Shown: one piece after another, positions 1,691 to 22,790 of the stretch
Numbering within the stretch: the first letter of the stretch is position 1
Layout: each line of letters starts with the position of its first letter
Assembly: GCF_900111835.1 (NCBI RefSeq)
Contig: NZ_FOJP01000007.1
Coordinates: 124,001 to 188,000, forward strand
Reading direction: 5' to 3'
DNA from: Metapseudomonas otitidis
GTDB lineage: Bacteria; Pseudomonadota; Gammaproteobacteria; Pseudomonadales; Pseudomonadaceae
DNA length: 64,000 bases
Position numbers and translations under genes: made by a program
The notes under the pieces: model-generated
What the model saw: only the letters and a program-made list of their open reading frames with translations
Database searches by the model: none
What the model was told of the DNA's origin: nothing

Positions 1691-1720
1691 CACGGCGCCC
1701 GTGGCTGGAGGCCTGCCACG
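1691..1720. terminator. Left part of the interrupted glmS hairpin
   Basis: CACGGCGCCCGTGGC (1691-1705) plus loop plus GCCACG (1715-1720). Joined to GGCGCCGTG at 20938-20946 it restores a 15-bp perfect stem with a 9-nt loop starting 11 bp after the glmS stop codon. It is presumably the original glmS terminator, although no long U-tract follows. The transposon inserted within the glmS-proximal arm. Confidence 0.7.
1716..1720. repeat. Left copy of 5-bp target-site duplication (CCACG)
   Basis: CCACG at 1716-1720 is repeated directly at 20933-20937, immediately outside the two transposon termini. Five base pairs is the duplication length made by Tn7-family transposases. Confidence 0.9.
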
Positions 1721-1868
1721 TGGATAGCCGAAACATAGTTTGACACAGCGGGTCGCAAAATCCGCTAGCTTCAGCGCTAGGATCTTCATCTACGACTGAA
1801 TCATAGTTTGACACAGCACAGCCCGCACACGCTAAAAGCCAGCTACTGTCAGGAACATAGTTTGACAC
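1721..1868 (+). repeat. Transposon left end with three TnsB-type sites
   Basis: The core TAGTTTGACAC occurs identically at 1736-1746, 1804-1814 and 1858-1868, each preceded by A/CA. Spacings are 68 and 54 bp. Widely spaced sites are typical of the cargo-side (left) end of Tn7. A weaker TTGACAC at 2205-2211, within the palindrome GACACGTGTC (2207-2216), could be a fourth site but lies far from the others. Confidence 0.88.
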
Positions 1869-2239
1869 CTTCCGCCAACAACGCATGCCGGTAATGTGCC
1901 TGAACTCTGAAGACGGCTCGGGATTTCACCAGTGGCCGACCCTAGGACATGTTTGTGGCAATCAACTCTGCTGGGGGCATCCAAAATCAGTACCGATTTT
2001 CCACGTAAGCCACTGGACATCCTGTAAAAAATCATGCAAAAACTGGCGACATCACTAATCTACATTCAGACTTAGTGCATATGCTCGATTATCACGAGAG
2101 TCCCGTGATCCCGCGTTCGAAATATGGATATTTCAATGCAAAGCCCGCTACAACTCAGCTACCTCCGCCACCGCCAACGAGCGCTAATTCAGCGAGCGTT
2201 CACATTGACACGTGTCGCCGATAGGAACCTCTACATTCT
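1869..2239. other. Non-coding stretch between left end and helicase
   Basis: No credible gene is visible. It contains an inverted repeat ATCACG-N7-CGTGAT (2091-2109) and the palindrome GACACGTGTC (2207-2216) just before the helicase start. Either could be an operator for the helicase pair; nothing in the window identifies a binding protein. Confidence 0.4.
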
Positions 2240-4838: not shown

Positions 4839-4973
4839 TCAGTGGCAGTGATAGTCACCGGTCTTGTGGTTGCGATGACAGCCCTTGGAGTCGGTGCCGC
4901 CACTGTGGGCCAATGCAGAGGCAGATACACAGGCGAAGAGCAGGGCAAGGAAGGCAGCGGACAGTTTCTTCAC
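4839..4973 (-). CDS. 44-aa secreted His/Cys mini-protein (YHYH-like)
   Basis: GTG start at 4973 preceded by GGAG (complement of 4981-4984) with a 7-nt spacer. The first half is a clear signal peptide (KKLSAAFLALLFACVSASALA). The mature part is only about 22 residues and contains HSGGTDSKGCHRNHKTGDYHCH, given here as two stretches: HSGGTDSKGCH, then RNHKTGDYHCH. This resembles the YHYH/YHCH domain of small secreted proteins. The five His and two Cys in so short a peptide suggest metal binding. It is the last gene of the leftward nickel/cobalt group, 85 bp after the MFS exporter. Function unproven. Confidence 0.7.
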   Translation of the reverse strand: MKKLSAAFLALLFACVSASALAHSGGTDSKGCHRNHKTGDYHCH

Positions 4974-5058
4974 GGTAGAACTCCTTTTCTAGTTGGGCGC
5001 CAGAACTGGCCAGCTGACGATATGGCAGCTAGCCACTAGCTCGCAACCCCTTACGCAA

Positions 5059-6357: not shown

Positions 6358-6386
6358 GTCAGCCCCCTCGTGAAGGTGGATTGATC

Positions 6387-6402
6387 ATCCCCCTGGGGGG
6401 AT
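6387..6402. promoter_or_regulatory. Operator 1 of metal island (before MFS exporter)
   Basis: ATCCCCCTGGGGGGAT, a near-perfect G/C-tract palindrome 30 bp upstream of the MFS start. CsoR/RcnR-family repressors bind G-tract inverted repeats of this kind. Two related sites stand before the other units of the island. Confidence 0.7.
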
Positions 6403-6430
6403 GGGTGGAACGGTTGATCGCGAAACGGTG

Positions 6431-7156
6431 TTATGTCACTGCGTACCTGAGCAACACCAAGGCCAGCAGGTGTCCCGGGTAGAAGGAGTAGCCCCAGCGG
6501 GTGACGGGCGGGACCTTGAACGACCATTCCTTTCTCAGCAGCCAGAGCCCATATAGCGGGGCACTGAACGCGATGATCGCCACTACGATCGGGTAAGGCT
6601 GAATGCCCCACTGCAGCATCCAGCTGTCCCTGTTGTTGGCCATTACGCAAAGGATGGCTGGCAGCAGGGCGCTGAGGCCGGGTTTGCGGATGGCCAATAC
6701 CAGGGCCGCCGGGATCAACACGCCACTAACGCCGTACATGAACAGGTCATGGAAGGCGACGCTGCTGGCAATGGCTATGGCGGCAGCAACGATGGAGACG
6801 ACATCGCGGTGATAGCAACCCCAGGCAACAATGAGCCCGAGCATTAGAGTGGGCATAACGCTGAAGGTCGAACTGCCCGACGACAGCATCCGGTAAGGAG
6901 GTTCCGAGATGACAACAAACAGCAGCATCCAGGTCAGGTAGCGTACGTTCGCTTCCGTGTAGAGCTCCCCACGGCGGCTGCGTGCCACATTCGCGGCTAT
7001 GGCGAGGCAGAACAGGGGGAATGACAGCCTGCCTATCAGGTAGAGCGGTGCCATGTCGTGCCAGAGGTAGCGCAGGTGGTCCAACACCATGGTTGCCATG
7101 CCCAGCCATTTGACGATGTCCAGGCCCGTATCCCGGTTCTGGTTGGCTTCGTTCAT
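6431..7156 (-). CDS. TraX-family membrane protein
   Basis: 241 aa, polytopic (about 7-8 hydrophobic segments). The start GLDIVKWLGMATMVLDHL and the following LIGRLSFPLFC resemble the TraX family (acyltransferase-3-like), known in conjugative plasmids for N-acetylating pilin. Here no conjugation genes are present and it sits in a metal-resistance operon, so its role is unknown. It might modify an envelope protein or protect against metal. The start at 7156 overlaps the preceding stop (ATGA) and has GGGGTGG upstream; this is preferred over the in-frame ATG at 7165. Confidence 0.7.
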   Translation of the reverse strand: MNEANQNRDTGLDIVKWLGMATMVLDHLRYLWHDMAPLYLIGRLSFPLFCLAIAANVARSRRGELYTEANVRYLTWMLLFVVISEPPYRMLSSGSSTFSVMPTLMLGLIVAWGCYHRDVVSIVAAAIAIASSVAFHDLFMYGVSGVLIPAALVLAIRKPGLSALLPAILCVMANNRDSWMLQWGIQPYPIVVAIIAFSAPLYGLWLLRKEWSFKVPPVTRWGYSFYPGHLLALVLLRYAVT

Positions 7157-7590
7157 GCGAGCCACCCCAGAGTGAGGGCTGTGAGGACCAGGTAACGGGC
7201 TGTCTTGGCGAAAATCACGATCAAGAGAAAGCTCCAGAACGGCTCGCGCAGCACACCGGCGAGCAGCGTAAGTGGGTCACCGATCACGGGCACCCAGCTC
7301 AGGAGAAGCGACCAGCGGCCATACCGGTGGTAATAACTGCCCGCTCGCTGCAGATTCTTTTCCTTGAGGGGGAACCAGCGATGGGACCCCCAGCGGGAAA
7401 CGTGACGCCCGAGCCACCAGTTGACGCTGGAGCCCAGAACATTTCCGAGGCTGGCAACTAGCAACAGAAGCCATACCGAATAGTTCTCTGTCAGCAGCAG
7501 GCCTACCAGGACGGCCTCCGACTGCAGCGGCAATAGCGTCGCGGCACCGAACGCGGTTAGAAACAGGCCTGCATAGGCCGATCTCTCCAC
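7153..7590 (-). CDS. YqaA/DedA-type small membrane protein
   Basis: 145 aa with about four hydrophobic segments. The pattern of a Gly-rich stretch (SLGNVLGSSVNWWLGR) and RWSLLLSWVPVIGDPLTLLAG matches the YqaA branch of the DedA/SNARE-associated superfamily, membrane proteins linked to lipid flipping, proton-motive force and stress tolerance. It begins 6 bp after the RcnA-like stop and overlaps the traX-like gene, so it belongs to the metal operon. Specific function unknown. Confidence 0.75.
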   Translation of the reverse strand: MERSAYAGLFLTAFGAATLLPLQSEAVLVGLLLTENYSVWLLLLVASLGNVLGSSVNWWLGRHVSRWGSHRWFPLKEKNLQRAGSYYHRYGRWSLLLSWVPVIGDPLTLLAGVLREPFWSFLLIVIFAKTARYLVLTALTLGWLA

Positions 7591-7596
7591 TGGTCT

Positions 7597-8724
7597 TCAG
7601 CTCGTAAGGTTGAGCCAGCCATGCCAGCCGACGTACACGCCCACCGCGATGATCAGAACGCTGGACAGGTAGGGCGCCCGACGGGCGACGGTGCTGAGCC
7701 AGGGCCAGCGGTTCGAGGCGTGACGTGCGCCCAGTGCAGCGGCGACCCCGACCGTTACCAGCGTGAGTGCAAGGCCCATGCTGAAGCACAGGACCAGAAC
7801 CGCTCCCAGCGTCATCTCCTTCACCTGCAGGCAGAGCAGCAGGACCGTGATAGCAGCGGGGCAGGGAATCAGACCGCCGGTCAGGCCGAACAGGATGACC
7901 TGGATCGTGGTGACGTCGCGGTTGGCGAAACGACGCTTGATGTCATTGGCATGCGCCCTTTCGTGAGCATCCTGATAGCCGTCAGCAGCCAGCTCGAGCC
8001 CTTCGAGTTCACTATGACCATGGTGGTGATGGGCGTGCTCCTTGTACTCGACGTCGTAGTCGTGGGAGTGGCCGCCATGGCCCAGGCTGACCCGAACACT
8101 GAACTCGTGGGGCTCCGGGATCACGTCGCGGGACTCAAGGAAGCCGACCTGCTGGACGAAGGTGAACGACTGCTCCACGCCATCCGGGCGGCGAGTCATG
8201 AGGTGGGTTTCTTGCGCTACCCAGGGCAAGCCACTGAGTGTCTTGATGCGCCAGCGGGGCGGTACGCCTTCCTCGAAGATCGACAGCTCGATCCGTCCAT
8301 GCCCGGTATCGATAACCCGAGTTTCGTCATGGGCGTGGTCATACTTATGATCGTGATCGCTTTCTGCCAACCAGCTGCGTTCACCCCGCCAGGTGCGCCA
8401 GAGCATCCATAGGGCGATGGCGATGATCAATGCGGCAGAGCCCAGTTGAAAGTAGGGTTCGGTGGTCTCCGCATCCAGGCCCTGGCCTAGGTACATGCCG
8501 CCGACGGCCACTGCCCAGACTACAGCCGTATGGGAGACGGTAGCTGCCAGCCCGAGCAGGATCGCCTGCTTGGCAGTGCCACGGATAGCGACGATAAAGG
8601 CGGCCATCATCGTCTTGGAATGGCCAGGCTCCAACCCGTGCAGCGCTCCAAGAAGGATGGCGCTGGGGAAATACAGCCAAGCGTGTGCCGCTCCCTGCTG
8701 CAGGAGTTGCGAGAAACTGCCCAT
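7597..8724 (-). CDS. RcnA-like nickel/cobalt efflux protein
   Basis: 375 aa. The N-terminal segment contains LLGALHGLEPGHSKTM, the NiCoT/RcnA signature with metal-coordinating His residues in the first membrane helices. A long cytoplasmic loop rich in His and Asp (about residues 125-255: DHDHKYDHAHDE, EHAHHHHGHSE) is followed by further helices with GGLIPCPAAITVLLLC. RcnA exports Ni(II) and Co(II) from the cytoplasm. E. coli RcnA is about 275 aa; the extra length is mostly the loop, part of which (about 165-225) looks like a folded insert. It follows the repressor gene by 9 bp in one operon. Confidence 0.9.
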   Translation of the reverse strand: MGSFSQLLQQGAAHAWLYFPSAILLGALHGLEPGHSKTMMAAFIVAIRGTAKQAILLGLAATVSHTAVVWAVAVGGMYLGQGLDAETTEPYFQLGSAALIIAIALWMLWRTWRGERSWLAESDHDHKYDHAHDETRVIDTGHGRIELSIFEEGVPPRWRIKTLSGLPWVAQETHLMTRRPDGVEQSFTFVQQVGFLESRDVIPEPHEFSVRVSLGHGGHSHDYDVEYKEHAHHHHGHSELEGLELAADGYQDAHERAHANDIKRRFANRDVTTIQVILFGLTGGLIPCPAAITVLLLCLQVKEMTLGAVLVLCFSMGLALTLVTVGVAAALGARHASNRWPWLSTVARRAPYLSSVLIIAVGVYVGWHGWLNLTS

Positions 8725-8733
8725 GGATGGACC

Positions 8734-9033
8734 TCAAAGGTATTTGGTGATCTGCTTGAACTCTTCAAGCGGCGCCCGCTCATCGCTGGTCATGGCGCCG
8801 ATGGTGTGTTCGAGGCAGTGGTCGATGTGATCCTGAATCAGCGTCCGTTTCGCCTGGCATACGGCCTTCTCGACTGCATGCATCTGTTGGGCAATATCCA
8901 CGCACTCGCGGCCGTTCTCGATCATGGTGATGATGCTGCGCAGATGCCCCTCCGCTCGCTTAAGACGCTTGACGATATCGGTGTGGCTTTCGTGGCGATG
9001 CCCATGATCGTGGGTCTGATCGAGTTCGCTCAT
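8734..9033 (-). CDS. CsoR/RcnR-family metal-sensing repressor
   Basis: 99 aa, all-helical family size. The His-rich N-terminal tail (THDHGHRHESH) is followed by the family core. By position the metal ligands are Cys44, His69 and Cys73, the C-H-C set of CsoR and of the nickel sensor InrS, rather than the C-H-H of RcnR. Such proteins are tetrameric repressors that leave DNA when metal binds. It is the first gene of the operon with the RcnA-like exporter and lies beside a G/C-tract operator 36 bp upstream, so autoregulation is likely. Nickel/cobalt specificity is inferred from its neighbours. Confidence 0.9.
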   Translation of the reverse strand: MSELDQTHDHGHRHESHTDIVKRLKRAEGHLRSIITMIENGRECVDIAQQMHAVEKAVCQAKRTLIQDHIDHCLEHTIGAMTSDERAPLEEFKQITKYL

Positions 9034-9064
9034 CGGTGGCTCATATTCTGTGGCTGATCACCAA

Positions 9065-9094
9065 ATCCTATCCCCCCCGGGAGGATATAATCAA
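9065..9094 (-). promoter_or_regulatory. Promoter and operator 2 of the repressor-rcnA operon
   Basis: On the minus strand, a -35 TTGATT (9089-9094), 18-bp spacer and -10 TAGGAT (9065-9070). The spacer is filled by the G/C-tract inverted repeat TATCCCCCCCGGGAGGATA (9069-9087). A repressor bound there would block polymerase directly. The layout mirrors the promoter at 9257-9286. Confidence 0.65.
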
Positions 9095-9256
9095 CAGGTG
9101 GCCGGCACTTGGATCCTTGTTGGCACGGAACCTGGGTATCGGGGCAGTCCGCTCTCATGCATTCGTCTTTTAGCCATCTCTTATGTGGCGGCTTGCCTGG
9201 TGCAGAGTGCTGACATCCAAGGAAATATTCGGGTCGCCCATAGAAATACTTAACAC

Positions 9257-9286
9257 TTGATCACATCCTCCCCCAGGGGATAAATT
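9257..9286 (+). promoter_or_regulatory. Promoter and operator 3 of the rightward metal operon
   Basis: A -35 TTGATC (9257-9262) and -10 candidate TAAATT (9281-9286) flank the G/C-tract repeat ATCCTCCCCCAGGGGATA (9265-9282). Same geometry as operator 2 but on the other strand, so the repressor probably controls both divergent units. The 170 bp between the two operators hold nothing recognisable. Confidence 0.6.
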
Positions 9287-9320
9287 GTCGGTCAACTCAG
9301 TATTTCGGCCGTCAACTACG

Positions 9321-9671
9321 ATGTCTCGAACCGCCTCCACCCGCACAGCACTAACGCTGGTGTTCGCGCTTCTGATGGCGTGGGTCGGGCACACCTATTC
9401 TCTACTTTCCTCGGCTGGCCTGCAGAACGTTGGCATAGAGGCCCACCATCACTCCCATGATGACGATTCGTTCAGCAACGCCGATCTTGGCGACCACTAC
9501 CACGCGCCTTTCACAGCTGATCACGTCCACGAAACTCCATACCTCGGCTCGCTGATCATCCTGCCCCCGATGAGTGGGCCTGGACAGCTGCAGTCTTCCC
9601 CCCGCTTCACCATGCCCATCGGGCCCATCTTCCTTATCGAGCGCCCTCCGCGCGACACGTCCGTGCTTTGA
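9321..9671 (+). CDS. Small His-rich envelope protein
   Basis: 116 aa. An N-terminal hydrophobic segment (TALTLVFALLMAWVGHTYSLL) acts as signal or anchor, followed by a His/Asp cluster (EAHHHSHDDD, GDHYHAPF, ADHVHE) and a Pro-rich tail. The composition resembles small periplasmic proteins found in metal-resistance operons (CzcI-like), but I cannot assign a family with certainty. It is the first gene of the rightward operon, 39 bp past operator 3. The start is uncertain: an in-frame TTG at 9285 is possible, but it overlaps the promoter. Confidence 0.6.
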   Translation: MSRTASTRTALTLVFALLMAWVGHTYSLLSSAGLQNVGIEAHHHSHDDDSFSNADLGDHYHAPFTADHVHETPYLGSLIILPPMSGPGQLQSSPRFTMPIGPIFLIERPPRDTSVL

Positions 9672-9719
9672 ATCGGGCTGCTTCGCAGCTCTCGTTTTCA
9701 GCAATCTAGGACGTAAGCA

Positions 9720-10445
9720 ATGAATGCACTTCTATGGAGTGGTGCGGACGCATTTCTGCGCCGCCCGCTTTTCCTGCTGACCCTGGTCGCGGCGCTGCTG
9801 CTCGTGACTCCGGACGCACTCGCCCATGGCGTTGCCGAAGGTGACAAGGGGTTCATCCAGGAGAGCACCGGCGTGATGCTCATGCCGTTTATCTACATGG
9901 GCGCCAAGCACATGATCACCGGATACGACCACCTGCTGTTCCTGTTCGGCGTGATCTTCTTCCTGTACCGCCTCAAGGATGTGGGACTCTACGTAACGCT
10001 GTTCGCCGTGGGCCATTCCGTGACGCTGCTGTTGGGCGTACTGGCCGACATCAGCATCAGCTCCTACGTGATCGACGCGATCATCGGCTTCTCGGTGGTC
10101 TACAAGGCGCTCGACAACCTCGGTGCCTTCAAACGCTGGTTCGGCGTACAGCCCGATACCCGCGCCGCCACCCTGATCTTCGGTCTGCTCCATGGTTTCG
10201 GCCTGGCTACCAAGATCCAGGAGTTCGAGATATCCCCAGACGGGCTGATCGTCAATCTGATCGCTTTCAACGTCGGTGTCGAAATCGGCCAGCTTCTGGC
10301 GCTCGGCAGCATCCTCATCCTCATGGGCTACTGGCGTCGCACTGCCAGTTTCTGGCAGCACGCGTATTCCGCCAACGTCGCCATGATGAGCGCCGGCTTC
10401 CTGCTGATGGGCTACCAGCTCACCGGCCTGGTTATTTCCCAGTAA
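9720..10445 (+). CDS. HupE/UreJ-family membrane protein
   Basis: 241 aa. Signal-like N terminus ending in ALAHG, then about six membrane segments. Family hallmarks are GYDHLLFLFGV (about residues 68-78) and LLHGFGLA (about 157-164). HupE/UreJ proteins mediate nickel or cobalt movement across membranes, often uptake for hydrogenase or urease. In this efflux island it more likely handles metal in the opposite sense or acts as an accessory; that is inference. It is followed after 9 bp by the anchor protein, a pair commonly seen together in metal islands. Confidence 0.85.
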   Translation: MNALLWSGADAFLRRPLFLLTLVAALLLVTPDALAHGVAEGDKGFIQESTGVMLMPFIYMGAKHMITGYDHLLFLFGVIFFLYRLKDVGLYVTLFAVGHSVTLLLGVLADISISSYVIDAIIGFSVVYKALDNLGAFKRWFGVQPDTRAATLIFGLLHGFGLATKIQEFEISPDGLIVNLIAFNVGVEIGQLLALGSILILMGYWRRTASFWQHAYSANVAMMSAGFLLMGYQLTGLVISQ

Positions 10446-10454
10446 GGACAAGAC

Positions 10455-11147
10455 ATGTTCAATTCGAAGCTTCCTACCCTCAATGAGCTGCCCAGCAGCA
10501 AACAACTGCTCCGCTCCACCGTCATCGCCATGGTTGCCGCCGGCGCACTGCTGGTCACCGTGGTCATGCCATCGGAGTACGCCCTTGACCCCACCGGTGT
10601 CGGTAGCGCCCTGGGCCTGACTCAGATGGGCAAGATCAAGATTCAACTCGCCGAGGAAGCGGCGGCGGACGCCGCTGTCGACAGTGCTGCACTGCAGGCA
10701 GCCGCTCCGGTTCAGCAAACCGCACCGGCCGCTCCGGTGGCGCCCGCACAACCGGCCATCGCGGCAACCCCTGCACCCGCTGCTGCTCCGGCGGCACCGA
10801 GTGCTCCAGCCAAGGCGGCTGGCCAGCAGCATCAGATCAGCATCACCCTGGCCCCGAACCAGGGGGCAGAAGTGAAGCTGGAAATGCTCAAGGGTGCCCG
10901 TGTCGATTTCACCTGGAGCGTGGCTGATGGCGTCGTGAACTACGATACCCACGGCGATCCCTACAACGCGCCCAAGGGCTTCTATCACGGCTATGGCAAG
11001 GGCCGTGCGACCCAGGAAGACAAGGGTACGCTGGAGGCGGCGTTCGACGGCAAGCACGGCTGGTTCTGGCGCAACCGTGGCAACGAGCCGGTAACCGTCA
11101 CCCTCAAGACCGAAGGCGACTATCTGCAGATTAAGCGCGTGATCTGA
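10455..11147 (+). CDS. Membrane-anchored periplasmic protein with Ala/Pro linker
   Basis: 230 aa. One membrane segment (residues about 22-38), a long Ala/Pro-rich linker (about 68-120), and a C-terminal globular domain with aromatic/Gly motifs (NYDTHGDP, GFYHGYGKG, HGWFWRN). It is of the type annotated as transmembrane anchor protein next to hupE in metal islands; no enzymatic motif is visible. Probably tethered to the inner membrane with the domain in the periplasm, working with the HupE-like protein. Last gene of the rightward operon. Confidence 0.65.
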   Translation: MFNSKLPTLNELPSSKQLLRSTVIAMVAAGALLVTVVMPSEYALDPTGVGSALGLTQMGKIKIQLAEEAAADAAVDSAALQAAAPVQQTAPAAPVAPAQPAIAATPAPAAAPAAPSAPAKAAGQQHQISITLAPNQGAEVKLEMLKGARVDFTWSVADGVVNYDTHGDPYNAPKGFYHGYGKGRATQEDKGTLEAAFDGKHGWFWRNRGNEPVTVTLKTEGDYLQIKRVI

Positions 11148-11206
11148 CGTGCTCATGGCCGGCTCACCCGAGTCGGCCTCCTACTCGTCCATGGAGACAT
11201 ACCACC

Positions 11207-12061
11207 ATGATGAAGATCGTCGGGATGATTGTCGTACTGGCGAGCGTGATCGCCGGCTACATGCTGTCTGGAGGTGCAATTGCAGCACTCATACAACCCT
11301 ATGAGGTCCTAGTAATCGGTGGTTGTGCACTAGGCGCCTTCCTGCAAGCAAATCCTGGTGGTACCACCATGCATGTCTTCAAGAAGGCGTTGAAGATGTT
11401 CAGCAGTCGCTTCAGTCACGCCTTCTATGTAGAGATCCTCACTGCGCTCTACGAAATCCTCAACAAGTCACGCCGGGAAGGCATGATGGCAATCGAGGCG
11501 GATATCGAGGACCCCAACGCGAGTCCCATCTTTAGTAAGTATCCGCGATTGGTGCAGGACACACGGATGCTGTCGTTCACCTGCGATCATCTTCGGATCA
11601 TGTCATCCGGGAACATGGCTCCTCACGAGTTGGAGGGGCTGATGGATGCAGGTCTGGGTAGTCTGAAAGAAGAGCTGGAACACAATTCCCATGCGGTGAG
11701 TCGACTCGCCGACGGCTTACCGGGCTTCGGTATCGTTGCTGCGGTGCTAGGTATCGTTGTTACCATGGGCCTGCTGGGTGAGGGCGATCAGGCTGCTATT
11801 GGTAAGCATGTGGCCGCCGCACTGGTGGGCACTTTTCTCGGCATCCTGGCAGCCTACGGCTTCTTCGGCCCCCTGGCGACCTGCCTAGAGCACGATGCCA
11901 AGGAGGAGCTGAATGTGTTCGAAGCGATCAAAGTGACTTTAGTGGCTGCGGCTTCTGGCATGCCCCCAACATTAGCTGTGGAGTTTGGCAGGAACGTGAT
12001 TTTCCCTGCACACCGGCCCTCCTTCAGCGAAATGGATGAGGCCTTCAGGAGTGCCAAGTAA
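11207..12061 (+). CDS. motA: MotA-like flagellar stator protein, without motB
   Basis: 284 aa, the length of proteobacterial MotA. Four membrane segments and a large cytoplasmic loop are present; Arg90 and a nearby Glu correspond to the charged residues that contact the rotor. The helix-3/4 signature GLPGFGIVAAVLGIV and the later FGPLATCLE are conserved. MotA forms the proton-driven stator with MotB, which is absent from the whole window. The gene has its own ribosome binding site (GGAGA) and lies 59 bp after the metal operon. A solitary motA as transposon cargo is unusual. It might pair with chromosomal MotB or poison stators; both are speculation. Confidence 0.85.
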   Translation: MMKIVGMIVVLASVIAGYMLSGGAIAALIQPYEVLVIGGCALGAFLQANPGGTTMHVFKKALKMFSSRFSHAFYVEILTALYEILNKSRREGMMAIEADIEDPNASPIFSKYPRLVQDTRMLSFTCDHLRIMSSGNMAPHELEGLMDAGLGSLKEELEHNSHAVSRLADGLPGFGIVAAVLGIVVTMGLLGEGDQAAIGKHVAAALVGTFLGILAAYGFFGPLATCLEHDAKEELNVFEAIKVTLVAAASGMPPTLAVEFGRNVIFPAHRPSFSEMDEAFRSAK

Positions 12062-12152
12062 AGTCGAGTGCACGCAACCCAGCGTCTTTGCCCGCGCGAA
12101 TTCACTCCGCATGATAGTCTCTGGAAAATAGACCGAACTGCAGAGGTTGAAC

Positions 12153-12356
12153 ATGAGCAATGTCGAGCAGCCAGATCGCAGCATTGCCGACATGTTGGAG
12201 GAAAAAGCTCGGCGACGCGAAGAGCTGGTAAAGGCCATTTGGGAGGCTGATCCTGCTGTCCTTGCTGAAGCCGCCGAAAAGCTCAGGGAGGCGATGCGCA
12301 AAGAAGACCCCAGTCAACGATGCCGCAGGCTGGGACCACGTTTGTTCCGCAAGTGA
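12153..12356 (+). CDS. Small charged helical protein, unknown
   Basis: 67 aa. ATG at 12153 with AGAGG 6 nt upstream. Highly charged and helical (EEKARRREELVKAIWEADP; AEAAEKLREAMRKE), with a basic C terminus. No family recognised. It lies 91 bp after motA. It could be a small regulator, but it may also be a fortuitous frame. Confidence 0.4.
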   Translation: MSNVEQPDRSIADMLEEKARRREELVKAIWEADPAVLAEAAEKLREAMRKEDPSQRCRRLGPRLFRK

Positions 12357-12540
12357 TCTGGCCCTACCTAATATTGAGTAGATCTAGCGATACATGAAAC
12401 CGCGAGAACTATAAAAAGCCGTATTAAGTGCGAAAATTAATCGTGCCCTTTAATTATGGCTTCAAATTCCCAAACGCGGCAAATTCAGCAAAAACTCTAG
12501 CGAGCCCATACTCCCAAGATCAAAGGGAGCTCGACAGGCT

Positions 12541-14229
12541 TCACTCCGCACTTTTTCTTTCCAGTCGCTTAGCTACGGATTTTTTCCGATAATATGCGGT
12601 TCCGCCCAGAACTTGGTTGAAACCTGGCGGACCCTGCCAGTTCCTTGGAACTCCCGTCGATTTAAGCAGGGACTCGGAGTCAACGCCGTTTCTCACAAAC
12701 CCCTCCAAGTCCCACTCGAAAAAGCTGACAAGGACTTGAAAAACCGTATTCGGCAGACTGGAAACCACACCCAAGCTGCCAGTGTTCATCGGAAGATTTA
12801 GTCTCCTGATATCGGCAAGAGCACCGATTAGCCGCCTCAGTCGAAAGTGCCAGACAGACTCCATGAGCAGTTCAGCCTGCTTGGAAGCCAAGGGAAATCT
12901 GCGCTTACGTAATTTTGGGCAGGGTGGAAGACGCACAGGTAGTAGTTTCTGCAGGTTGCTGAGATTAACCCGCTTCTGCCCTTTGGAAATTCGATAGAGA
13001 TCCTCAGCACCCGCTAAGAGAATAGCAGCGTATGCGCTGTCTCGGAGATCACTAACCTCCTTAACTACGTCAGGTACGGGCGTGCAGAGCCTTGCCATCA
13101 ACCAAGAATTATCATGTTTCGTCAACCAACGAGTTGCTTGGTAAGCATTATCCCAGAGGTACTCCAAATCGGCGTTCACTCGCACAGCCAAAATCGTATT
13201 TATTTTCTGACGATGTTGCGCCTTCCTACCGACCTGCGGCTTTTCCGGATTTGAGCGTGATTTTTCACCTGCGGCGCTATGATAAATAACTTCATTCTTC
13301 AAAGCTTCCTCAAATTGATCTGCGCTACCGAACAGATGCTGCGCAATGATCATATGCCTCGCAATTGGCATATCCATTTGGCCATTGCAAGATCCAAACC
13401 GTATCCATTGGTTGTGCTTACCTGTTTCATAAGCTTTATCCATTCGCGACAAAGCTTCATCTCCATACATTGAGCGGATACTGTTAAATAGTTTCGCAGT
13501 ACTTGTAAATTTTCCGTGTATAAAACCGCGCGCCCTGCATTGCCGCACATAGCTTCCCCCCAATGCCTCACAACTGACTAGTGGAAAGCTCCGCTGTAGT
13601 ACCTCGTAGGCAAACTGAGCAAAATTCCTTTCTTGCGCAGTACCCTGTTTAACTGTCGAAGGATCAAGTGCGCTCCAACCGCATACGCAAGGCTCAGTCG
13701 GATTAGGAAGTAGACGAAGCTTACGGAAGAACGGATGAGAGCACTTGGGGCACGCGTGCATTAGCGACTCACCATGACGCCAACAAACGCTCACACCGGG
13801 CAAGTGATGTGAGCGATGCCAGTATGCGGAACCTGTTTCAAGCAGATCTTGCTGCACACAGGTTAAGCAAAGCTTAGCCTTCCCGTGGACCGCTGCCTCT
13901 CGACGGGGAATACGAGCAACCCCAGACAAGCGGGAACCTGCATAGGCAGAATCCGCATCGTGGCCTACCCCTAGAAAGGGTCTATACGCTGGAAATATAG
14001 TATTAGCGCAAATTAATTCGTCGAGATTACGTGCCGGATCACCAGGCAGTCTGGAGGCAAGCTCTTCAATCTGCTTTGGCAAAATCCCCATACTGAACGG
14101 CGCCGAGCCGAACAGGTCTTGGAAGGTTTCAGTCGCAGTTCTGTTACCTGACAGGAAGTGGTAGCGCGTGATACGAGAATGCAAAATCTCGTCCGGCATC
14201 GACATGGGAAAAAATAGCAGATCAGACAT
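12541..14229 (-). CDS. Second TnsD/TniQ-family target-selection protein
   Basis: 562 aa from the ATG at 14229; the frame also extends to a TTG at 14247. The TniQ domain has the zinc-binding set Cys121, Cys124, Cys149, His152, with the same spacing as in Tn7 TnsD, inside the family motif AYWHRSHHLPGVSVC. A second Cys pair (CPKC, 160-163) and a later CVCG suggest an additional zinc ribbon. The C-terminal half is unlike the first TnsD in this element and unlike Tn7 TnsD, so it probably recognises a different target or acts as a partner. It is separated from tnsD by about 290 bp and likely has its own promoter. Confidence 0.85.
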   Translation of the reverse strand: MSDLLFFPMSMPDEILHSRITRYHFLSGNRTATETFQDLFGSAPFSMGILPKQIEELASRLPGDPARNLDELICANTIFPAYRPFLGVGHDADSAYAGSRLSGVARIPRREAAVHGKAKLCLTCVQQDLLETGSAYWHRSHHLPGVSVCWRHGESLMHACPKCSHPFFRKLRLLPNPTEPCVCGWSALDPSTVKQGTAQERNFAQFAYEVLQRSFPLVSCEALGGSYVRQCRARGFIHGKFTSTAKLFNSIRSMYGDEALSRMDKAYETGKHNQWIRFGSCNGQMDMPIARHMIIAQHLFGSADQFEEALKNEVIYHSAAGEKSRSNPEKPQVGRKAQHRQKINTILAVRVNADLEYLWDNAYQATRWLTKHDNSWLMARLCTPVPDVVKEVSDLRDSAYAAILLAGAEDLYRISKGQKRVNLSNLQKLLPVRLPPCPKLRKRRFPLASKQAELLMESVWHFRLRRLIGALADIRRLNLPMNTGSLGVVSSLPNTVFQVLVSFFEWDLEGFVRNGVDSESLLKSTGVPRNWQGPPGFNQVLGGTAYYRKKSVAKRLERKSAE

Positions 14230-14519
14230 CGAAAATTGACTAGCCAAATAGTGCTTAAAAAGTACACGAACTCTACAGCGCAGTGTATTTCCAACACACT
14301 ATATCGTGTTTCGGAGAGGAAAATATAAAAAAATGCCAACCCATGACATACAAGAGCTATGTTGATTTTACACCCTCACACTTTTCTTGCACAAAGCAGA
14401 TAGCCAACATAAGCCGTCTTCACACTAGTATTATCGCGGACTCCCTCCTAAAAAACGCCTGCCGGGGCTCACACTCTCTTATAAATATGCATGGGATATT
14501 TTCCTCTCAGAGGACATAA
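14230..14519. other. AT-rich gap between the two TniQ genes
   Basis: No gene is visible. The stretch is markedly AT-rich compared with the chromosome and presumably holds the promoter of the downstream tniQ gene. A short imperfect inverted repeat (AGTGTATTTCCAACACACT, about 14282-14300) is the only structure noticed. No CRISPR-like repeats are present here. Confidence 0.4.
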
Positions 14520-16184
14520 CTACGGCCGAATGCAAGCTGTTCGATACAACGCTGACCGAGTTACGCTTCGCTGCTCGTTTTCCAACCTCGCCTTGGCCCA
14601 CTCTAAGCGCCGAACGTGAAACTCCTCGATAGACTCACACGTCTGCTCCAATGCCAAGGCACACAGGGGTAGCTTGGAGAGCTGTTTTTCGAAACGTGAG
14701 AGGACGTGTAGATCCCGCCCTATTCTAGAGCGCGAGATGTAGACAGGCTTTCCTGGTGCAGTCCGAAGGCGCTGCCCACAGCACCGGATCTGTTCTGCAA
14801 GTATCGCGTCAATAGTAGTGAATGTAGTGGTGCTATCAGCACGGCATGTATGAGTATCTGCATGTTTGGCGATGTAGCCTGAGAGCCAGGCTCGATCACA
14901 GCGATAAAGCCACATGTAATCCTTGCACTTGTGAGCTTGCAGGGTCACATATTCGACCTCGAAGGTTGCTCGGCGCCTAAGGCGCTCGCTTTGAAATTTT
15001 GCGTTTTTCCAGGCCGGCGAACCGCCGTTGACACCACGGATGGTTCGATAAACATATACCCTGGAGACACCAAGCGCAGAGGCGATCTGCCGAGCCTCAC
15101 ATCCGGCAAGTGCTAGTCTCCAAACAACAGCAGGCAAGCCCTCCATCCCCTCTAGCAGGTCCTCAGAAAGCTTGGCTTTTGTATAACCGAGACCAGTTGG
15201 CGATGGTCGCTTAACAACTGGCGTGGATCGCTCGTTGCAGCATTGGAGATGAGCCAGATCGACCCCCAGGGCAGTGGCCAGCACAATGTATTTGAGTGGA
15301 TGATGCGTATGCCTTGGCCTGCGTAGCAGCTTGGTGACCCAAGTCGCGGGTTGGCCTGCGGGTGACTCTCTGAGGATCGAGTATTCCCAAGCTGCAGGCA
15401 GAACGTTGAAAACGCCGACCATATGTGCGGCCAAACGGCATAGATCCAGCCGCTGCGATTTACCCCGGGTTAGACCTACCTCAGTAGCTCTCTGCATCAG
15501 GCAAGCGCGCAAGGCAATGGGTGAAATGGGATTGAGGGCTAGCGTAAGCAATTGCATTGATTGGAGCGCGATCTGATGCAGCGTTGGAAAAGCCTCCAAA
15601 CCAACAGTGACCTGGTGTGAATGAGCTTGTACTTCCGCATCATCAGGCAGGTGGAGCTGCCATGAGTTACGGCTGCACCAGCTCGGATCCACCATCCTGA
15701 GCGAATCGCCGTGGTGAGGGCATACCAACACGCCGGGAAGCTGGTGAACGCGGTGCCAGTACGCTGCGCCAACCCCAACGAGGTCCTCATTGAGGCAGGC
15801 CGGACAGAAGCGTACCCTCGAAGCTCCTTCGAGCCGACTGGCATTGACTCCTAGTTTCAGCATTAGCCACTTGCCGTCCCCGGCCATTGAGGTGCGGGCA
15901 TGCAGCATCTGATCATCGGTGAGAAAAGGCGCGTAATAGGGCAGAACTGTATGGCGCGTGATGATTTTGCATACCGAGAGGTCTGTGCCTGGGGGAAGCG
16001 ACTCGACTAAATCATCCAATCGACAGGGAAACGCTACATTTTGCGTGAACGAGACCGCAGCTCTGTTGCCGATGAACGCAGCTTTGCGGCTATGCCCGCC
16101 ACAAAGCCGGGCATAGCGAGATAGAACGCTGTGTAGCGTCTCATCGGGGAATGCTGTAGGGAAGAAATGGAATTTCAGCTCCAT
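14520..16184 (-). CDS. tnsD: TnsD, attTn7-recognising target selector
   Basis: 554 aa (Tn7 TnsD is 508). TniQ domain with zinc ligands Cys127, Cys130, Cys155, His158, the same spacing as the CCCH finger of Tn7 TnsD. The C-terminal third also matches Tn7 TnsD in pattern: WLYRCDRAWL, then LSKLPLCALALEQTCESIEEF and HVRRLEWA. TnsD binds the 3' end of glmS and recruits TnsC, directing insertion just downstream, exactly where this element sits. It starts 15 bp after the tnsC stop, so it is the fourth gene of the tns operon. Confidence 0.92.
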   Translation of the reverse strand: MELKFHFFPTAFPDETLHSVLSRYARLCGGHSRKAAFIGNRAAVSFTQNVAFPCRLDDLVESLPPGTDLSVCKIITRHTVLPYYAPFLTDDQMLHARTSMAGDGKWLMLKLGVNASRLEGASRVRFCPACLNEDLVGVGAAYWHRVHQLPGVLVCPHHGDSLRMVDPSWCSRNSWQLHLPDDAEVQAHSHQVTVGLEAFPTLHQIALQSMQLLTLALNPISPIALRACLMQRATEVGLTRGKSQRLDLCRLAAHMVGVFNVLPAAWEYSILRESPAGQPATWVTKLLRRPRHTHHPLKYIVLATALGVDLAHLQCCNERSTPVVKRPSPTGLGYTKAKLSEDLLEGMEGLPAVVWRLALAGCEARQIASALGVSRVYVYRTIRGVNGGSPAWKNAKFQSERLRRRATFEVEYVTLQAHKCKDYMWLYRCDRAWLSGYIAKHADTHTCRADSTTTFTTIDAILAEQIRCCGQRLRTAPGKPVYISRSRIGRDLHVLSRFEKQLSKLPLCALALEQTCESIEEFHVRRLEWAKARLENEQRSVTRSALYRTACIRP

Positions 16185-16199
16185 TACACGACCCTCGAA

Positions 16200-17660
16200 T
16201 CATGATCGACGGTAGGCCGGCGAGAACTCGAAGATATCCTTGGTGACCCAGCCAGCTGACTTCAGCTCTGCAAGAGTGTCAGGATGCTCACTGAACGCCT
16301 TTGCTTGCGACGCCTCAACGGCGACGGCTACAGGCGTACCGGACTTCTTAACAGCAGGTTCTGGTACCGCGTTGTTTGCACGTGCGGGTGGGGTCACACT
16401 TCGAAGCAAAGCAAGACGGTCAGCTCGCCCAAGCCCACTGAACGCCATCATTTCCATCAGCTGCTCCTCAATGGGAAGCAAGTCGTCGAACTTGCGCATG
16501 CGATTAGGATCACGACTACGCAGAGCAGATAGCGCTGGCCTGAGTATTTGCATCTTGGAATTGCTTACTTTGGCGATCGTCTCGGCAGTCACACACTCGG
16601 AGCCACTCTGAATGGCATAGCGCTGGCTCAGCACCAATAACTTAACCAGGAAGTCAGTCACTCCCTGGGTGTGCTCGTACAGTGCGTCAAAAATCTCCGA
16701 AGTCAGTTCAGTCGTCTGCTTACACCACTGATAGCTCCAAAGGTTCTCGACCAGAAAGCGCCACTCTTCATCCTCCCTCTCGAAGCGCTTGAATTCGATC
16801 ATCCCCCCACCGCAACTGCGCCTGGCGACACGCATTACGTCCGAGAACAGGCTGATCATCGAATTCGTCCCGATGAACACGACCGGGATACCGATGTTGT
16901 TCACCAGGTGAAGGAAGAAATTCAGCATGCTTTCCTTACCCCCGGTCTTGGCCAGGTGAAGGTTCTGCAGCTCATCAATGAGCAAGGCGCCGATAAAAAA
17001 CGTGCTGGCTACCTGCTCCATCTGCTGAAGCGCATCGTTGATGTTTCGATGCCGGTGGCGCTTGTGGTAGTCCTGGTCGCCCAGTGCTTGGCCGACCGCG
17101 TGGAAGAACTGCTGACAAAATCCAGCCAACGAGCCATCTCGTGGACAATCAAGCTTGAGCCAGGTGATCTGGGTGTGGACGAATTGCTGGCCCTCATAAC
17201 GCTCATGCCGGATCGTCTGAGGGTACAGGCTTAAAATGGCATGCAGTGCAGTGGACTTCCCAATACCACTCAGGCCCACAACGCTGAAGGTGTCAGCCGT
17301 TGATTTGAAAGCATCGTGATAGCGCTGAGCCCCTGACAAGGAATGCAAGTGCCTAACCGTGGAGGCACTAGTTGGATTACGGCCAACGTATCCACGCCGG
17401 ATCAGCAGTGACAACAACGACTCTAGCTCTAAATGCAGCAGAAACGGCTGCACAACCGTCCTCAGACGATCAATGCAGTGAATACGCGTTGCACCATCTA
17501 GCTCAAGCTCTTCCGGTGTTACCGGCTGGGGAAAATTTGATATCAGCTCGGCAGCTGTCATTTCATCAAGAATTGGTGGCAGCGCTTCGATCAGAGGGTT
17601 TCCCGCGTATTCAGTTATGGACTGCCTTGAATAGCTCGCAAGAGCTTTAGCACCTCTCAC
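16200..17660 (-). CDS. tnsC: TnsC, AAA+ transposition regulator
   Basis: 486 aa. Walker A GLSGIGKST (residues 129-137), Walker B ALLIDE with Asp229-Glu230, then LQNL, all typical of TnsC/TniB ATPases. In Tn7, TnsC polymerises on target DNA marked by TnsD and activates the TnsAB transposase, and also gives target immunity. GTG start overlapping the tnsB stop by 4 bp (GTGA). An Ala/Pro-rich segment near the C terminus (about 425-455) resembles a flexible tail that could contact TnsA or TnsB. Confidence 0.93.
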   Translation of the reverse strand: MRGAKALASYSRQSITEYAGNPLIEALPPILDEMTAAELISNFPQPVTPEELELDGATRIHCIDRLRTVVQPFLLHLELESLLSLLIRRGYVGRNPTSASTVRHLHSLSGAQRYHDAFKSTADTFSVVGLSGIGKSTALHAILSLYPQTIRHERYEGQQFVHTQITWLKLDCPRDGSLAGFCQQFFHAVGQALGDQDYHKRHRHRNINDALQQMEQVASTFFIGALLIDELQNLHLAKTGGKESMLNFFLHLVNNIGIPVVFIGTNSMISLFSDVMRVARRSCGGGMIEFKRFEREDEEWRFLVENLWSYQWCKQTTELTSEIFDALYEHTQGVTDFLVKLLVLSQRYAIQSGSECVTAETIAKVSNSKMQILRPALSALRSRDPNRMRKFDDLLPIEEQLMEMMAFSGLGRADRLALLRSVTPPARANNAVPEPAVKKSGTPVAVAVEASQAKAFSEHPDTLAELKSAGWVTKDIFEFSPAYRRS

Positions 17661-19825
17661 TTGACCTGTCCCGGCCGAACTCTTTTGATCAAATCGATAA
17701 CCTGCGCGGTGCGCGGTCCAGCATACGAGTCTCGGACAATGACAGAGCTCTGATCTTCAGATTGACCGGGAACCGTACGTACACCGTCAGGGACAGTGGC
17801 CTGCTCTCGTTCCATGAGTCGCTCTCGCGCGCGATTCTCGCGAATGTTCGCCAACGCTTCAGCTTTAGAGCCGGCCGCTGGTTCAAGCTTTCTCTCGGCT
17901 CTTGCATTGCTTAGAATTTGATCAACCGTCTCGACCAAGCCTACTCGGCTTTCTAGTTCGGCGCGTTTATGAGCTGGCGGCATCTGCCTATTGGCCTCCA
18001 GAAGATCATAGACCTCGTCCGAACGATATCCCGCATATTTGGCATCCGACCGCCGCAGGTCGCAACGCAAAAACTCCTTGTTCTCGCCCTTAATCCAGAT
18101 GTGCGCTGCAGAGTTCGGATCAAACCAGCAGTCAATCGACCAAACGCCATTTCGACGCGCTTTGGCGAACCATTTTTTCTCGATAGCCATCTCACAGAGA
18201 TAGTGCATGCCGCGGAACAATACACCTCCCTTCTGGACCGTGGCTCTTTCCTTAGGCAGCAAGTTGAGATAAATCAATTCGTCAGGTCGATTGTTGGGCT
18301 GGATAAGTTGGTTCTCCAACGCCCACCCCCAGATTTCTATCGGAGTGGGTTCCACACCATCATTCATCATTGCTTGAGTAAGACGATCCGGCTGCCGATG
18401 GAAACGGTTGTAGTGGAGGATGCACTCGATGATGATCTGGGTGAATTCCTTCAGATTCAGCGTGGCATCAAGCCGATAATCTCGCTCGCCGCGTTCCTTT
18501 TCTCGGGCCGCCACTCCGCCAGGGAGCCATCTAATACCTGTTAGATCGTTCAAGATGCCGAAGCGACTCTCGACCATGGGTTTCCAATCTGGTCGATACG
18601 GCGGTGCTGTCCCCATATCGATACCTAGGCCGGCTGCGAGCCCTTCTGCAGCCGCCCCCAGCATTTCACCTCTGTCGGCGTAGATTTGATGCGGCAGGTG
18701 ACGACAGTCCCAATCCTCTGGTCTGATATCGACGCCGTTCTGCGCACAGAACTCAACCTTGGAGGTAAATGCGTTGAACAGTGCTTGCCTAGCACCATTC
18801 CAGCTAGGTCCCTCAAGGCCTACATACAAACCGACAATCATCCCTGAAAAACTGTCGACCACGATGTACACCACAGGACGGCCGATGAGCATTCGTCGGG
18901 TGTAACTGTTGACCAAGTAAATGTCAGCAACAGTCGCGTCTATTTCAAATTGATGACAAGGCCCTCTAAGCCAATCGCGGACGGTACCGGATAATGGACG
19001 GCAATCCTTTAGCCACTTCCTCATACCCTTACGCCCACGATCAGTCTCGATGTCATCGAAAAACTGCTTGCCCCAGTAAATAAACTGGTTGAATGTGGGA
19101 ATTTCAGACTGAGGAAGTAATCTAACTTTACCTTCTGGATTTTTAGAAAGCTGTTTCTCCGAATAGTATTTTTCAAGCATTTTTTCGTAAGCTCTACTAA
19201 TCGTTGAGCTTTTGTTCTTTGCGTAAAGAGCGTAGGAAACCCGAATACATCGCTTATCAGTATCACTTAGCAACTTAGCAGGCGAAACTAGCAAGCCCTG
19301 ATACTTAGGCTTTCGCCCTGGCTTTTTGTCAGCAGAATAATTACGAACTCCAACGCCTACCGCAGAATAATTTTTAAGAAACGCATTTCTTACTTGACCA
19401 TAAAACCAATATCTATACAGCAACCGATACAGCGTCTTACGCTGAACGCCCACCTCAGCGGCACGATCACCGACCAACCTACCCATCTCGCCATGAAAAA
19501 ATATTTGCCCTGGGTATGCCTGATCAAAAAATGGTGCAATCAAAGCCCACTTTTGATCCCTATCTCGTTTCGCACGGTCATCAAGCTCATCTTCCAAAAC
19601 CAATAGAAACTCTGGTACAGCTATCACTACAGACTTAGTATCTCCTGACTCCAAAGACCCTCTAAACTCTTCAAGGCTAATCGAGTAGGGTTTCTTGGGG
19701 GGATCTCTCAGGTCCATAACAACTAGTACGTCGTTCTTCTCATCGACGTATAAGGCTCTCGCCATAGTAGGGAGCATAGAGAAATCTGTAACGGGCTCAA
19801 AGACATCATTGACTGATATTTTCAT
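17657..19825 (-). CDS. tnsB: TnsB, DDE transposase
   Basis: 722 aa (Tn7 TnsB 702). The catalytic triad is Asp296 (FEIDAT), Asp384 (IYADRGE) and Glu419 (MVES). The spacings of 88 and 35 residues equal those of Tn7 TnsB (D273, D361, E396). The N-terminal part holds the DNA-binding helices that recognise the end repeats. TnsB cuts the 3' ends and joins them to the target. Its start codon overlaps the tnsA stop (ATGA), so TnsA and TnsB are made together. The triad is complete, arguing for an active transposase. Confidence 0.95.
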   Translation of the reverse strand: MKISVNDVFEPVTDFSMLPTMARALYVDEKNDVLVVMDLRDPPKKPYSISLEEFRGSLESGDTKSVVIAVPEFLLVLEDELDDRAKRDRDQKWALIAPFFDQAYPGQIFFHGEMGRLVGDRAAEVGVQRKTLYRLLYRYWFYGQVRNAFLKNYSAVGVGVRNYSADKKPGRKPKYQGLLVSPAKLLSDTDKRCIRVSYALYAKNKSSTISRAYEKMLEKYYSEKQLSKNPEGKVRLLPQSEIPTFNQFIYWGKQFFDDIETDRGRKGMRKWLKDCRPLSGTVRDWLRGPCHQFEIDATVADIYLVNSYTRRMLIGRPVVYIVVDSFSGMIVGLYVGLEGPSWNGARQALFNAFTSKVEFCAQNGVDIRPEDWDCRHLPHQIYADRGEMLGAAAEGLAAGLGIDMGTAPPYRPDWKPMVESRFGILNDLTGIRWLPGGVAAREKERGERDYRLDATLNLKEFTQIIIECILHYNRFHRQPDRLTQAMMNDGVEPTPIEIWGWALENQLIQPNNRPDELIYLNLLPKERATVQKGGVLFRGMHYLCEMAIEKKWFAKARRNGVWSIDCWFDPNSAAHIWIKGENKEFLRCDLRRSDAKYAGYRSDEVYDLLEANRQMPPAHKRAELESRVGLVETVDQILSNARAERKLEPAAGSKAEALANIRENRARERLMEREQATVPDGVRTVPGQSEDQSSVIVRDSYAGPRTAQVIDLIKRVRPGQVK

Positions 19826-20676
19826 GAAGACTTCTCGCCCTGTTTGACCGCTTCGATAGGAAAGACAATGCTGAAGTCTGGCAACGGCGACTTTAAGTGT
19901 AATGGCGCGCCACTTAAGTCAACCCTTATAATTTTCCGCCAAATTAAATTAAAAAATATATCCCGAGCTTCAGCATACGGTATGGATAATCTGTGCCCAA
20001 TCCGCCTCAGACTCTCTGAGGTAGACCAAGAGCAACCTTTTACTGATTCAAGAATCTCAACAAATTCAAAATGCAGCGAAACATCCATTAGAGCACGAGA
20101 CAATTTTGCATATTTTCGAAGAGCTACGAGATTCAAGATTAAATCAGACGTAAATAACTCCTCCGTTACTATGCTCCAGTCTACACCTTGGCTCATCCAG
20201 AAACGTCTCTCGACCTCTAATTTCTCCAAGGTGCGAGCACAGCCCTTACCTTGAAGGTCTTGCTGATACTTTATAGTCCTTGCAAAAAATTTTAGGTCGC
20301 CGTTTGGCTGCTTAACTGTGAGCAGAAAGTCGGTGGTCATTACGAGCGGGACAGAGGTTGTCTTATACCTTGGATATGGAACACCGATAGCTCTTGCGAT
20401 TGCCTGGGTGCTGTCCAACGGCAACAACGGATACTGCTCACGGATGTCTACTACATCCTCTGAAAACTCACAGAGCAGAAAGTAAGCTCTTTCAAGATCG
20501 GATAAGAGGTGATGAACTCGATCAATCTTAACGCCTTGGATTTTCCAGGACCGCCCCATTGAGGGGACATCCTGAACACGCAACCAAGGCACATAATCGG
20601 CTCCGGCACCTGCTCCAAAACCATTGGCGATGTGCCGTTCGATATCCTGATTTGAAGCAAACCTACGACCCCGCAC
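19822..20676 (-). CDS. tnsA: TnsA, transposon 5'-end endonuclease
   Basis: 284 aa (Tn7 TnsA 273). Restriction-endonuclease-like fold with probable catalytic residues Glu62 (LERAYF), Asp116 (TTDFLL) and Lys136 (ARTIKY), in line with Glu63, Asp114 and Lys132 of Tn7 TnsA. TnsA cuts the 5' strands so that, with TnsB, the element moves by cut-and-paste. GTG start preceded by GGAGAGAGG. First gene of the tnsABCD operon; transcription runs away from glmS. Confidence 0.92.
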   Translation of the reverse strand: MRGRRFASNQDIERHIANGFGAGAGADYVPWLRVQDVPSMGRSWKIQGVKIDRVHHLLSDLERAYFLLCEFSEDVVDIREQYPLLPLDSTQAIARAIGVPYPRYKTTSVPLVMTTDFLLTVKQPNGDLKFFARTIKYQQDLQGKGCARTLEKLEVERRFWMSQGVDWSIVTEELFTSDLILNLVALRKYAKLSRALMDVSLHFEFVEILESVKGCSWSTSESLRRIGHRLSIPYAEARDIFFNLIWRKIIRVDLSGAPLHLKSPLPDFSIVFPIEAVKQGEKSS

Positions 20677-20829
20677 CCTCTCTCCTCACCCGCCAGGAAC
20701 TCTCCCTTCACTCGGCAAGAAAAATAGTTAAAGGAAAACACGGGCTGCTGAGCCCCCATTCTGAACAGCCTTCCAGACTACTCCTATCAAAAACTCAAGG
20801 GCCAACCGCTGATAAACGGCTGAGGATAA

Positions 20830-20856
20830 AAAGAAAAATCCCTGCAAATACAGGGA
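20830..20856 (-). terminator. Intrinsic terminator inside the right end
   Basis: On the minus strand, hairpin TCCCTG-TATTTG-CAGGGA (20839-20856) is followed directly by TTTTTCTTT. It lies 102 bp downstream of the glmS stop, between the end repeats and tnsA, and would stop transcripts entering from glmS. This replaces the hairpin that insertion destroyed and isolates tnsABCD from the strong glmS operon. Confidence 0.8.
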
Positions 20857-20866
20857 CCTAGAGTTT

Positions 20867-20932
20867 GTGTCAAACTATAATATCTCGTGTCAGACTTTAT
20901 TCTTTTGTGTCAATCTTTATTCCATGAAGCCA
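20867..20932 (-). repeat. Transposon right end with three tandem TnsB-type sites
   Basis: GTGTC cores begin at 20867, 20887 and 20907, exactly 20 bp apart, each followed by an AAACTA-like sequence (AAACTA, AGACTT, AATCTT). They are inverted relative to the left-end sites. Closely packed sites at the glmS-proximal end and spaced ones at the other repeat the Tn7 asymmetry that fixes insertion orientation. Confidence 0.88.
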
Positions 20933-20937
20933 CCACG
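20933..20937. repeat. Right copy of target-site duplication (CCACG)
   Basis: Direct repeat of 1716-1720. The remaining arm of the interrupted hairpin continues to 20946. Confidence 0.9.

Positions 20938-20957: not shown

Positions 20958-22790
<1,833 letters not shown>

Follow-up and report, generated by a model that had tools for sequence, protein, structure and literature searches.

The 64,000-nucleotide stretch of Metapseudomonas otitidis DNA analyzed here (the window) contains a complete Tn7-like element of 19,212 bp (1721-20932), with the target-site duplication (TSD) CCACG on both sides. Although no binding or transposition data are available, we consider it likely that this is a Tn7-like transposon in which one TnsABC machinery serves two protein selectors: a TnsD-type protein (D1) that directs it to glmS, and a second one (D2) that directs it to plasmids and ICEs by sequence and replaces TnsE. 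As far as sequence alone can support such a reading, its basis consists of the transposon ends, the TSDs, one empty site, a target motif with its spacing, elements that carry only D2, and purifying selection on D2.

The genes run inward from the right end in the order tnsA, tnsB, tnsC, D1 and D2 (Table 1); D2 is second in transcription order and has the lower coordinates. The glmS stop codon lies 21 bp from the element (TSD excluded), which is the attTn7 position. In 15 of 18 relatives, a pattern search gave 23-25 bp, a distance counted up to the first base of the transposon, with the 5-bp TSD included. From position 1721 the left end reads TGGATAGCCG, and the spacing of its TnsB-type sites (68 and about 55) is that of the relatives. 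The window thus fulfils the criteria for a Tn7-like element, namely tnsA, tnsB and tnsC with tniQ/tnsD, repeated TnsB sites at both ends, a 5-bp TSD and the attTn7 position. It does not meet that for canonical Tn7, a TnsE plasmid selector. The original prediction had seen no TnsE, and a tblastn search with TnsE of the R721 Tn7 likewise gave no match in the window or in any fetched stretch with a D2 element, while the R721 TnsE positive control was found. This negative result rests on tblastn (the controls of a Pfam TnsE_C search were silent), and a very divergent TnsE could have been missed.

Table 1. Features of the Tn7-like element and its attachment site, in window coordinates
Feature	Position	Strand	Basis
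Left target-site duplication CCACG	1716..1720	+	Sequence; identical 5 bp at 20933-20937
Transposon left end, 5'-TGGATAGCCGAA, then TnsB-type sites at 1733, 1801, 1855	1721..1870	+	
D2, second TniQ/TnsD, extra zinc ribbon, proposed plasmid/ICE selector	12541..14229	-	Pfam TniQ, partial TnsD
D1, TnsD-type selector, glmS route	14520..16184	-	Pfam TniQ + TnsD
tnsC	16200..17660	-	Pfam AAA_22 and TniB
tnsB	17657..19825	-	Pfam PF09299, 6.6e-6; 70-89% identity to relatives' TnsB
tnsA	19822..20676	-	Pfam PF08722, 6.7e-21
Transposon right end, 5'-TGGCTTCATGG, then three TnsB-type sites, 20-bp spacing	20865..20932	-	
Right target-site duplication CCACG	20933..20937	+	
glmS	20958..22790	-	TIGR01135, 3e-257

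Rfam gave no match in the window, and PADLOC, applied to 7 proteins and not to every ORF, returned only TniQ domains and helicase-type matches. The cargo includes a full-length flagellar stator gene, motA (window 11207-12061, + strand; TIGR03818, 354 bits), of which a second copy, 78% identical, is present elsewhere in the same genome. A two-gene unit at the left end (window 2240-4518, + strand), possibly a defence unit, encodes a RadD/restriction-type helicase and a 142-aa protein without a Pfam match; the left end of the pTTS12 element also has a helicase and a protein of similar size.

Both selector genes are real, intact and full-length, in keeping with the original prediction of two TnsD-type proteins in one element. 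Both proteins also carry the CCCH zinc finger with the Tn7 TnsD spacing that had been read for them (C-x2-C-x24-C-x2-H, as in TnsD of the R721 Tn7), and D2 meets the criterion of a TniQ core plus this finger. D1 (554 aa) matches Pfam TniQ (5.7e-20) and TnsD (7.2e-20), the latter match extending to the model's C-terminus. For D2, TniQ is matched (1.6e-12), and the TnsD match covers only model positions 2-111, about the first third. The claim that D1 alone shares the C-terminal pattern of Tn7 TnsD holds. The start of D2 was revised from 14247 to 14229, giving 562 aa, because the reading frame of the closely related RW109 plasmid copy contains a stop codon immediately before this point; relatives start at MSDLLFFP. 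R721 TnsD aligns with D1 over 4-488 (24%), to the end, and with D2 only over 4-373 (23%), to residue 384. The different C-terminal half that had been claimed for D2 was worded slightly too strongly, as a D1-D2 profile comparison finds remote similarity to about residue 490 of D2 (Prob 99.7). The extra Cys-rich ribbon, C-x2-C...C-x-C, is indeed present in every D2-clade protein tested and absent from D1 and R721 TnsD; however, it also occurs in a TniQ of known structure (7u5d) and is therefore a TniQ trait that is not unique to D2. The tree separates D1 from D2 proteins by a deep split into two clades (100/100), and the Burkholderia proteins belong to that of D2. The mean pLDDT of AlphaFold2 models was too low for use (42.6 for D2, from an alignment of 10; 59.2 for D1, from an alignment of 8).

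Relatives of D2 were collected from plasmids, whole genomes and genome contigs. Chromosomal copies are mostly located at glmS, and the intact glmS-adjacent ones carry both D1 and D2. Within the TnsB clade (TnsB more than 70% identical to that of the window), D2 is present in 12 of 12 plasmid copies, and glmS adjoins the right end in none of the 12. Finding all D2 carriers only at glmS would have refuted the original prediction; plasmid and other non-glmS insertions are instead observed. Most plasmid elements carry both selectors. Elements on Burkholderia contaminans plasmids have tnsABC and a single TniQ, which belongs to the D2 and not the D1 clade, thereby providing the relatives with only the second TniQ whose search had been recommended. 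They occupy two different plasmid sites (TSDs CTACC and GGTGG), with the sequence GGAAAAC at 40 and 41 bp. With its flanks joined, the first of these sites gives 495 bp that are uninterrupted at 100% identity in five Burkholderia plasmids, i.e. an empty site. The copy on the RW109 plasmid has both D1 and D2, the TSD GCGCA and IS insertions inside; joining its flanks restores a small gene, inside which, as read from the sequence, the insertion falls. Other matching 5-bp duplications were found for pPALO532 (CTTGC) and pMG4 (GCAGA), and an empty site for pPALO532 was sought without success. A MITE of about 400 bp lies in a Stenotrophomonas plasmid (TSD TGATT), and one Pseudomonas plasmid has two of about 395 bp (TSDs AACAA and CCCGC). 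Two right-end patterns gave no match in viral contigs, and a class-wide search with the Burkholderia D2 returned the window's own genome as its only match.

Several arrangements among the relatives were recorded in addition. In pTTS12 (L057/L092), about 13 kb of cargo lies between D1 and D2, with D2 near the left end, and D2 can travel as its own unit in such an arrangement. The D1-like and D2-like genes are convergent in L082, L084, L085 and L087. An Azonexus plasmid (L069:20470-22293) has an annotated glmS gene, with a Tn7-like tnsA about 16 kb off. MITEs of about 400 bp with both transposon ends and TSDs are found at L093:833-1822 and L120 about 5990-6390, two of them adjacent in one plasmid, and each has GGAAA about 40 bp from its right end.

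The target motif was sought by aligning the sequence outside the right ends. Of eight independent plasmid sites in the discovery set, seven have GGAAAAC with its end 39-41 bp ahead of the insertion, and the eighth has GGAAACC. The shorter GGAAA, counted at 41-44 bp and ending 41-43 bp before the insertion, is present in 8 of 16 discovery and 8 of 11 held-out sites, together 16 of 27 non-glmS sites, and in none of 30 glmS sites (29 distinct). Its chance occurrence is 0.5% per site, the held-out binomial tail is 6e-17, and no other offset gave more than one match. The orientation of the insertions is fixed: it is the right end that lies closest to the motif. The held-out sites were collected by right-end sequence only, after the GGAAAAC rule had been noted. 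Their matches are on plasmids (L117, GGAAAAC at 40; L119, GGAAAAA at 40; L120, GGAAATC at 40) and in Pseudomonas genomes (L144, GGAAATC at 39; L160, GGAAATC at 41; L167, GGAAAAC at 40; L162, GGAAAAT at 41; L154, GGAAAGG at 41). Since this list was made after tandem and cut cases had been set aside, and GGAAA was shortened from GGAAAAC, the result is a strong guide and not a formal test. Moreover, several held-out cases consist of a remnant or MITE in which D2 is missing, and their placement is not ascribed to a particular selector.

A second motif resembling CAGTAGAAGG lies 42-44 bp before the insertion in most of the remaining non-glmS sites, namely six (L064, L065, L066, the third of L093, L118 and L146), and L063 has a weaker match to it with two mismatches. 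L060 has such a motif one helical turn further away, and neither motif is present at L164, at L068 or at L052 and L150, which are one site. In these four non-glmS sites (L060; L052/L150; L164; L068), no motif of either kind stands where it would be expected. There is no clean correspondence between the two motifs and the D2 clades. Motif-matching insertions also occur in some chromosomal contigs; one insertion, with the second motif, adjoins a TraC conjugation gene. Three groups (L046/L110/L114, L053/L157 and L103) were rejected as non-glmS sites, as in each the right end directly adjoins the terminus of a further Tn7-like element, in tandem; L046, L053 and L103 are probably cases of an occupied attTn7. 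L121 was left out because its right-end terminus is cut. It was also observed that L064, L065, L066, L118 and L146 represent a recurrent intergenic target in plasmids and ICEs, in which a GC-rich hairpin is followed by GGCAGTAGAAGGGCGC.

GGAAAAC is often the Shine-Dalgarno sequence of small plasmid genes, with a start codon following and genes running on the same strand. With many motif sites being ribosome-binding sites ahead of an ATG, D2 could recognize an unknown host or plasmid protein, or a ribosome-linked structure on Shine-Dalgarno-like sequences, and not the motif DNA; Tn5053, a TniQ element whose targets are the resolution sites of plasmids (PMC11406308), is a precedent. We regard this as unlikely, though not to be dismissed. 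The motif sites of L117, L119 and L160 have no close ATG after the motif, and D2 has a long C-terminal region, like the TnsD-type proteins that read DNA directly (PMC10293859). Furthermore, only about 2% of the GGA-N4-to-ATG contexts in these stretches carry GGAAAAC, and therefore the ribosome-binding site as such is not the signal.

The glmS insertions raise a different question, whether D1 itself, by relaxed recognition, makes the insertions away from glmS. In 16 of 18 attTn7 sites, the last letter of a conserved glmS 8-mer, GC[GC]AA..., is 39-41 bp ahead of the insertion, which is the spacing of GGAAAAC; the letters of the two are partly similar (GCGAAGTC, AGGAAAAC), and most plasmid elements have D1 available beside D2. 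However, the Burkholderia elements use the same motif twice without any D1-clade protein. One chromosomal copy, close to a TraC conjugation gene, retains an intact D2 but carries an IS3-type transposase in place of D1, although the IS may postdate the insertion. A role of D1 in place of D2 is thus quite improbable.

PMC3384475 credits Parks and Peters with the proposal that, in Tn7-like elements with two tnsD genes, one TnsD might permit non-specific targeting. Applied here, D2 would give access to targets with little or no sequence preference, and the plasmid bias would reflect survival only. The plasmid backbones and the genes hit do vary, and four sites lack the motif, but GGAAA at a fixed distance in 16 of 27 sites, and in 8 of 11 held-out ones, cannot easily be squared with the chance figure given above, and we give this possibility very little credence. 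That D2 is a functionless, decaying duplicate kept by hitch-hiking is hardly tenable, for although some copies are broken or orphaned (a split frame in G1008; a D2 without a D1 match in pKF715B), its dN/dS is 0.07-0.15 across 66-82% identity, its zinc ligands are all invariant among relatives, and no plasmid copy of the TnsB clade lacks it. By these ratios, D2 is under purifying selection (D1, 0.23-0.31), and the values against close relatives (0.12-0.15) offer no sequence evidence of the inactive D2 that would have contradicted the original prediction.

Under the preferred reading, with D1 and D2 as separate selectors, D1 would read the end of glmS and place the element at attTn7, and D2 would provide a second, dissemination route in the place of TnsE, toward plasmids, ICEs and related DNA. 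Its target would be a short purine-rich sequence, mostly GGAAAAC and in some elements CAGTAGAAGG at nearly the same position, with insertion 39-44 bp downstream. D2 is taken as the reader because the D2-only elements use the same motif twice; that it contacts the motif DNA itself and recruits TnsC, which sets the spacing, is inferred. In the simplest reading, the two selectors would both dock on one TnsC platform at an equal distance, the only difference being the DNA that each reads. The alternative target route without CRISPR that had been suggested for the second protein is supported to this extent by the D2-only relatives and the shared motif off glmS. Small genes in plasmid operons often have GGAAAAC as their ribosome-binding site, and a single conjugative plasmid therefore presents several addresses. 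GGAAAAC is about twofold enriched in plasmid stretches relative to 58 kb of chromosome, and GGAAAACNNNATG shows little if any enrichment in plasmids; the motif alone was dropped as the cause of the plasmid bias, since global plasmid enrichment of GGAAAACNNNATG was not clear. Because the motif is also found on chromosomes, the plasmid/ICE enrichment must be partly due to survival or an added cue, and we infer that targeting and survival act together.

Compared with Tn7 (TnsABC+D+E; the R721 copy served as control), the window element shares the attTn7 site past glmS, the 5-bp TSD, the ABCD gene order and the two-route lifestyle of chromosomal haven and plasmid dissemination, which has been reviewed (PMC11406308). 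It differs in its termini (TGG, versus TGT in Tn7) and in that no TnsE, the known plasmid selector (PMC10293859), was found, the plasmid route apparently being sequence-read by a second TnsD/TniQ. CRISPR-associated dual-TniQ elements likewise have two TniQ-family proteins, one of them for glmS, but their second protein partners CRISPR-Cas, whereas D2 has 562 aa and no CRISPR partner was seen. Faure et al. (2023) described 998 loci with two TniQ-TnsD proteins, the second usually small and the dual loci mostly derived from in-situ duplication (PMC10293859). The window element belongs to this broad class, but both D1 and D2 exceed 550 aa and come from clades with a deep split between them, and for D2 we propose a target. 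Tn5053/Tn402 is also a TniQ-type element choosing plasmid targets; it uses res sites with resolvase, in contrast to the short motif 40 bp from the insertion here. BGImetal, a Tn7-like island of Burkholderia (33,652 bp, tnsABC+tniQ), matches the Burkholderia D2-only element (33.6 kb) in species and gene set and closely in length; the passages of PMC10702557 consulted name neither a target rule nor a link to D2. A search of the open-access literature (subscription papers were outside it) turned up neither the motif nor any TnsD/TniQ choosing plasmids by sequence. The biological idea is not new, but the specific, sequence-based answer appears to be new.

We also favor, with less assurance, the view that D2 founds a class of selectors that bring Tn7-like elements to conjugative plasmids and ICEs through a translation-start-like sequence common in mobile-element operons, using the same 40-bp ruler as the glmS route and functionally replacing TnsE and CRISPR guides. 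Many Tn7-like elements have a second TnsD/TniQ, and its job outside CRISPR systems, an open question, here receives a concrete and testable answer: a motif of 5-7 letters, a spacing fixed at 40 bp, an empty site and elements that naturally have D2 alone. Besides the known ones, Tn7-like transposons would thus have a third type of route for dissemination by plasmids, which matters for how metal resistance genes spread, and a compact, protein-only insertion system becomes available for testing.
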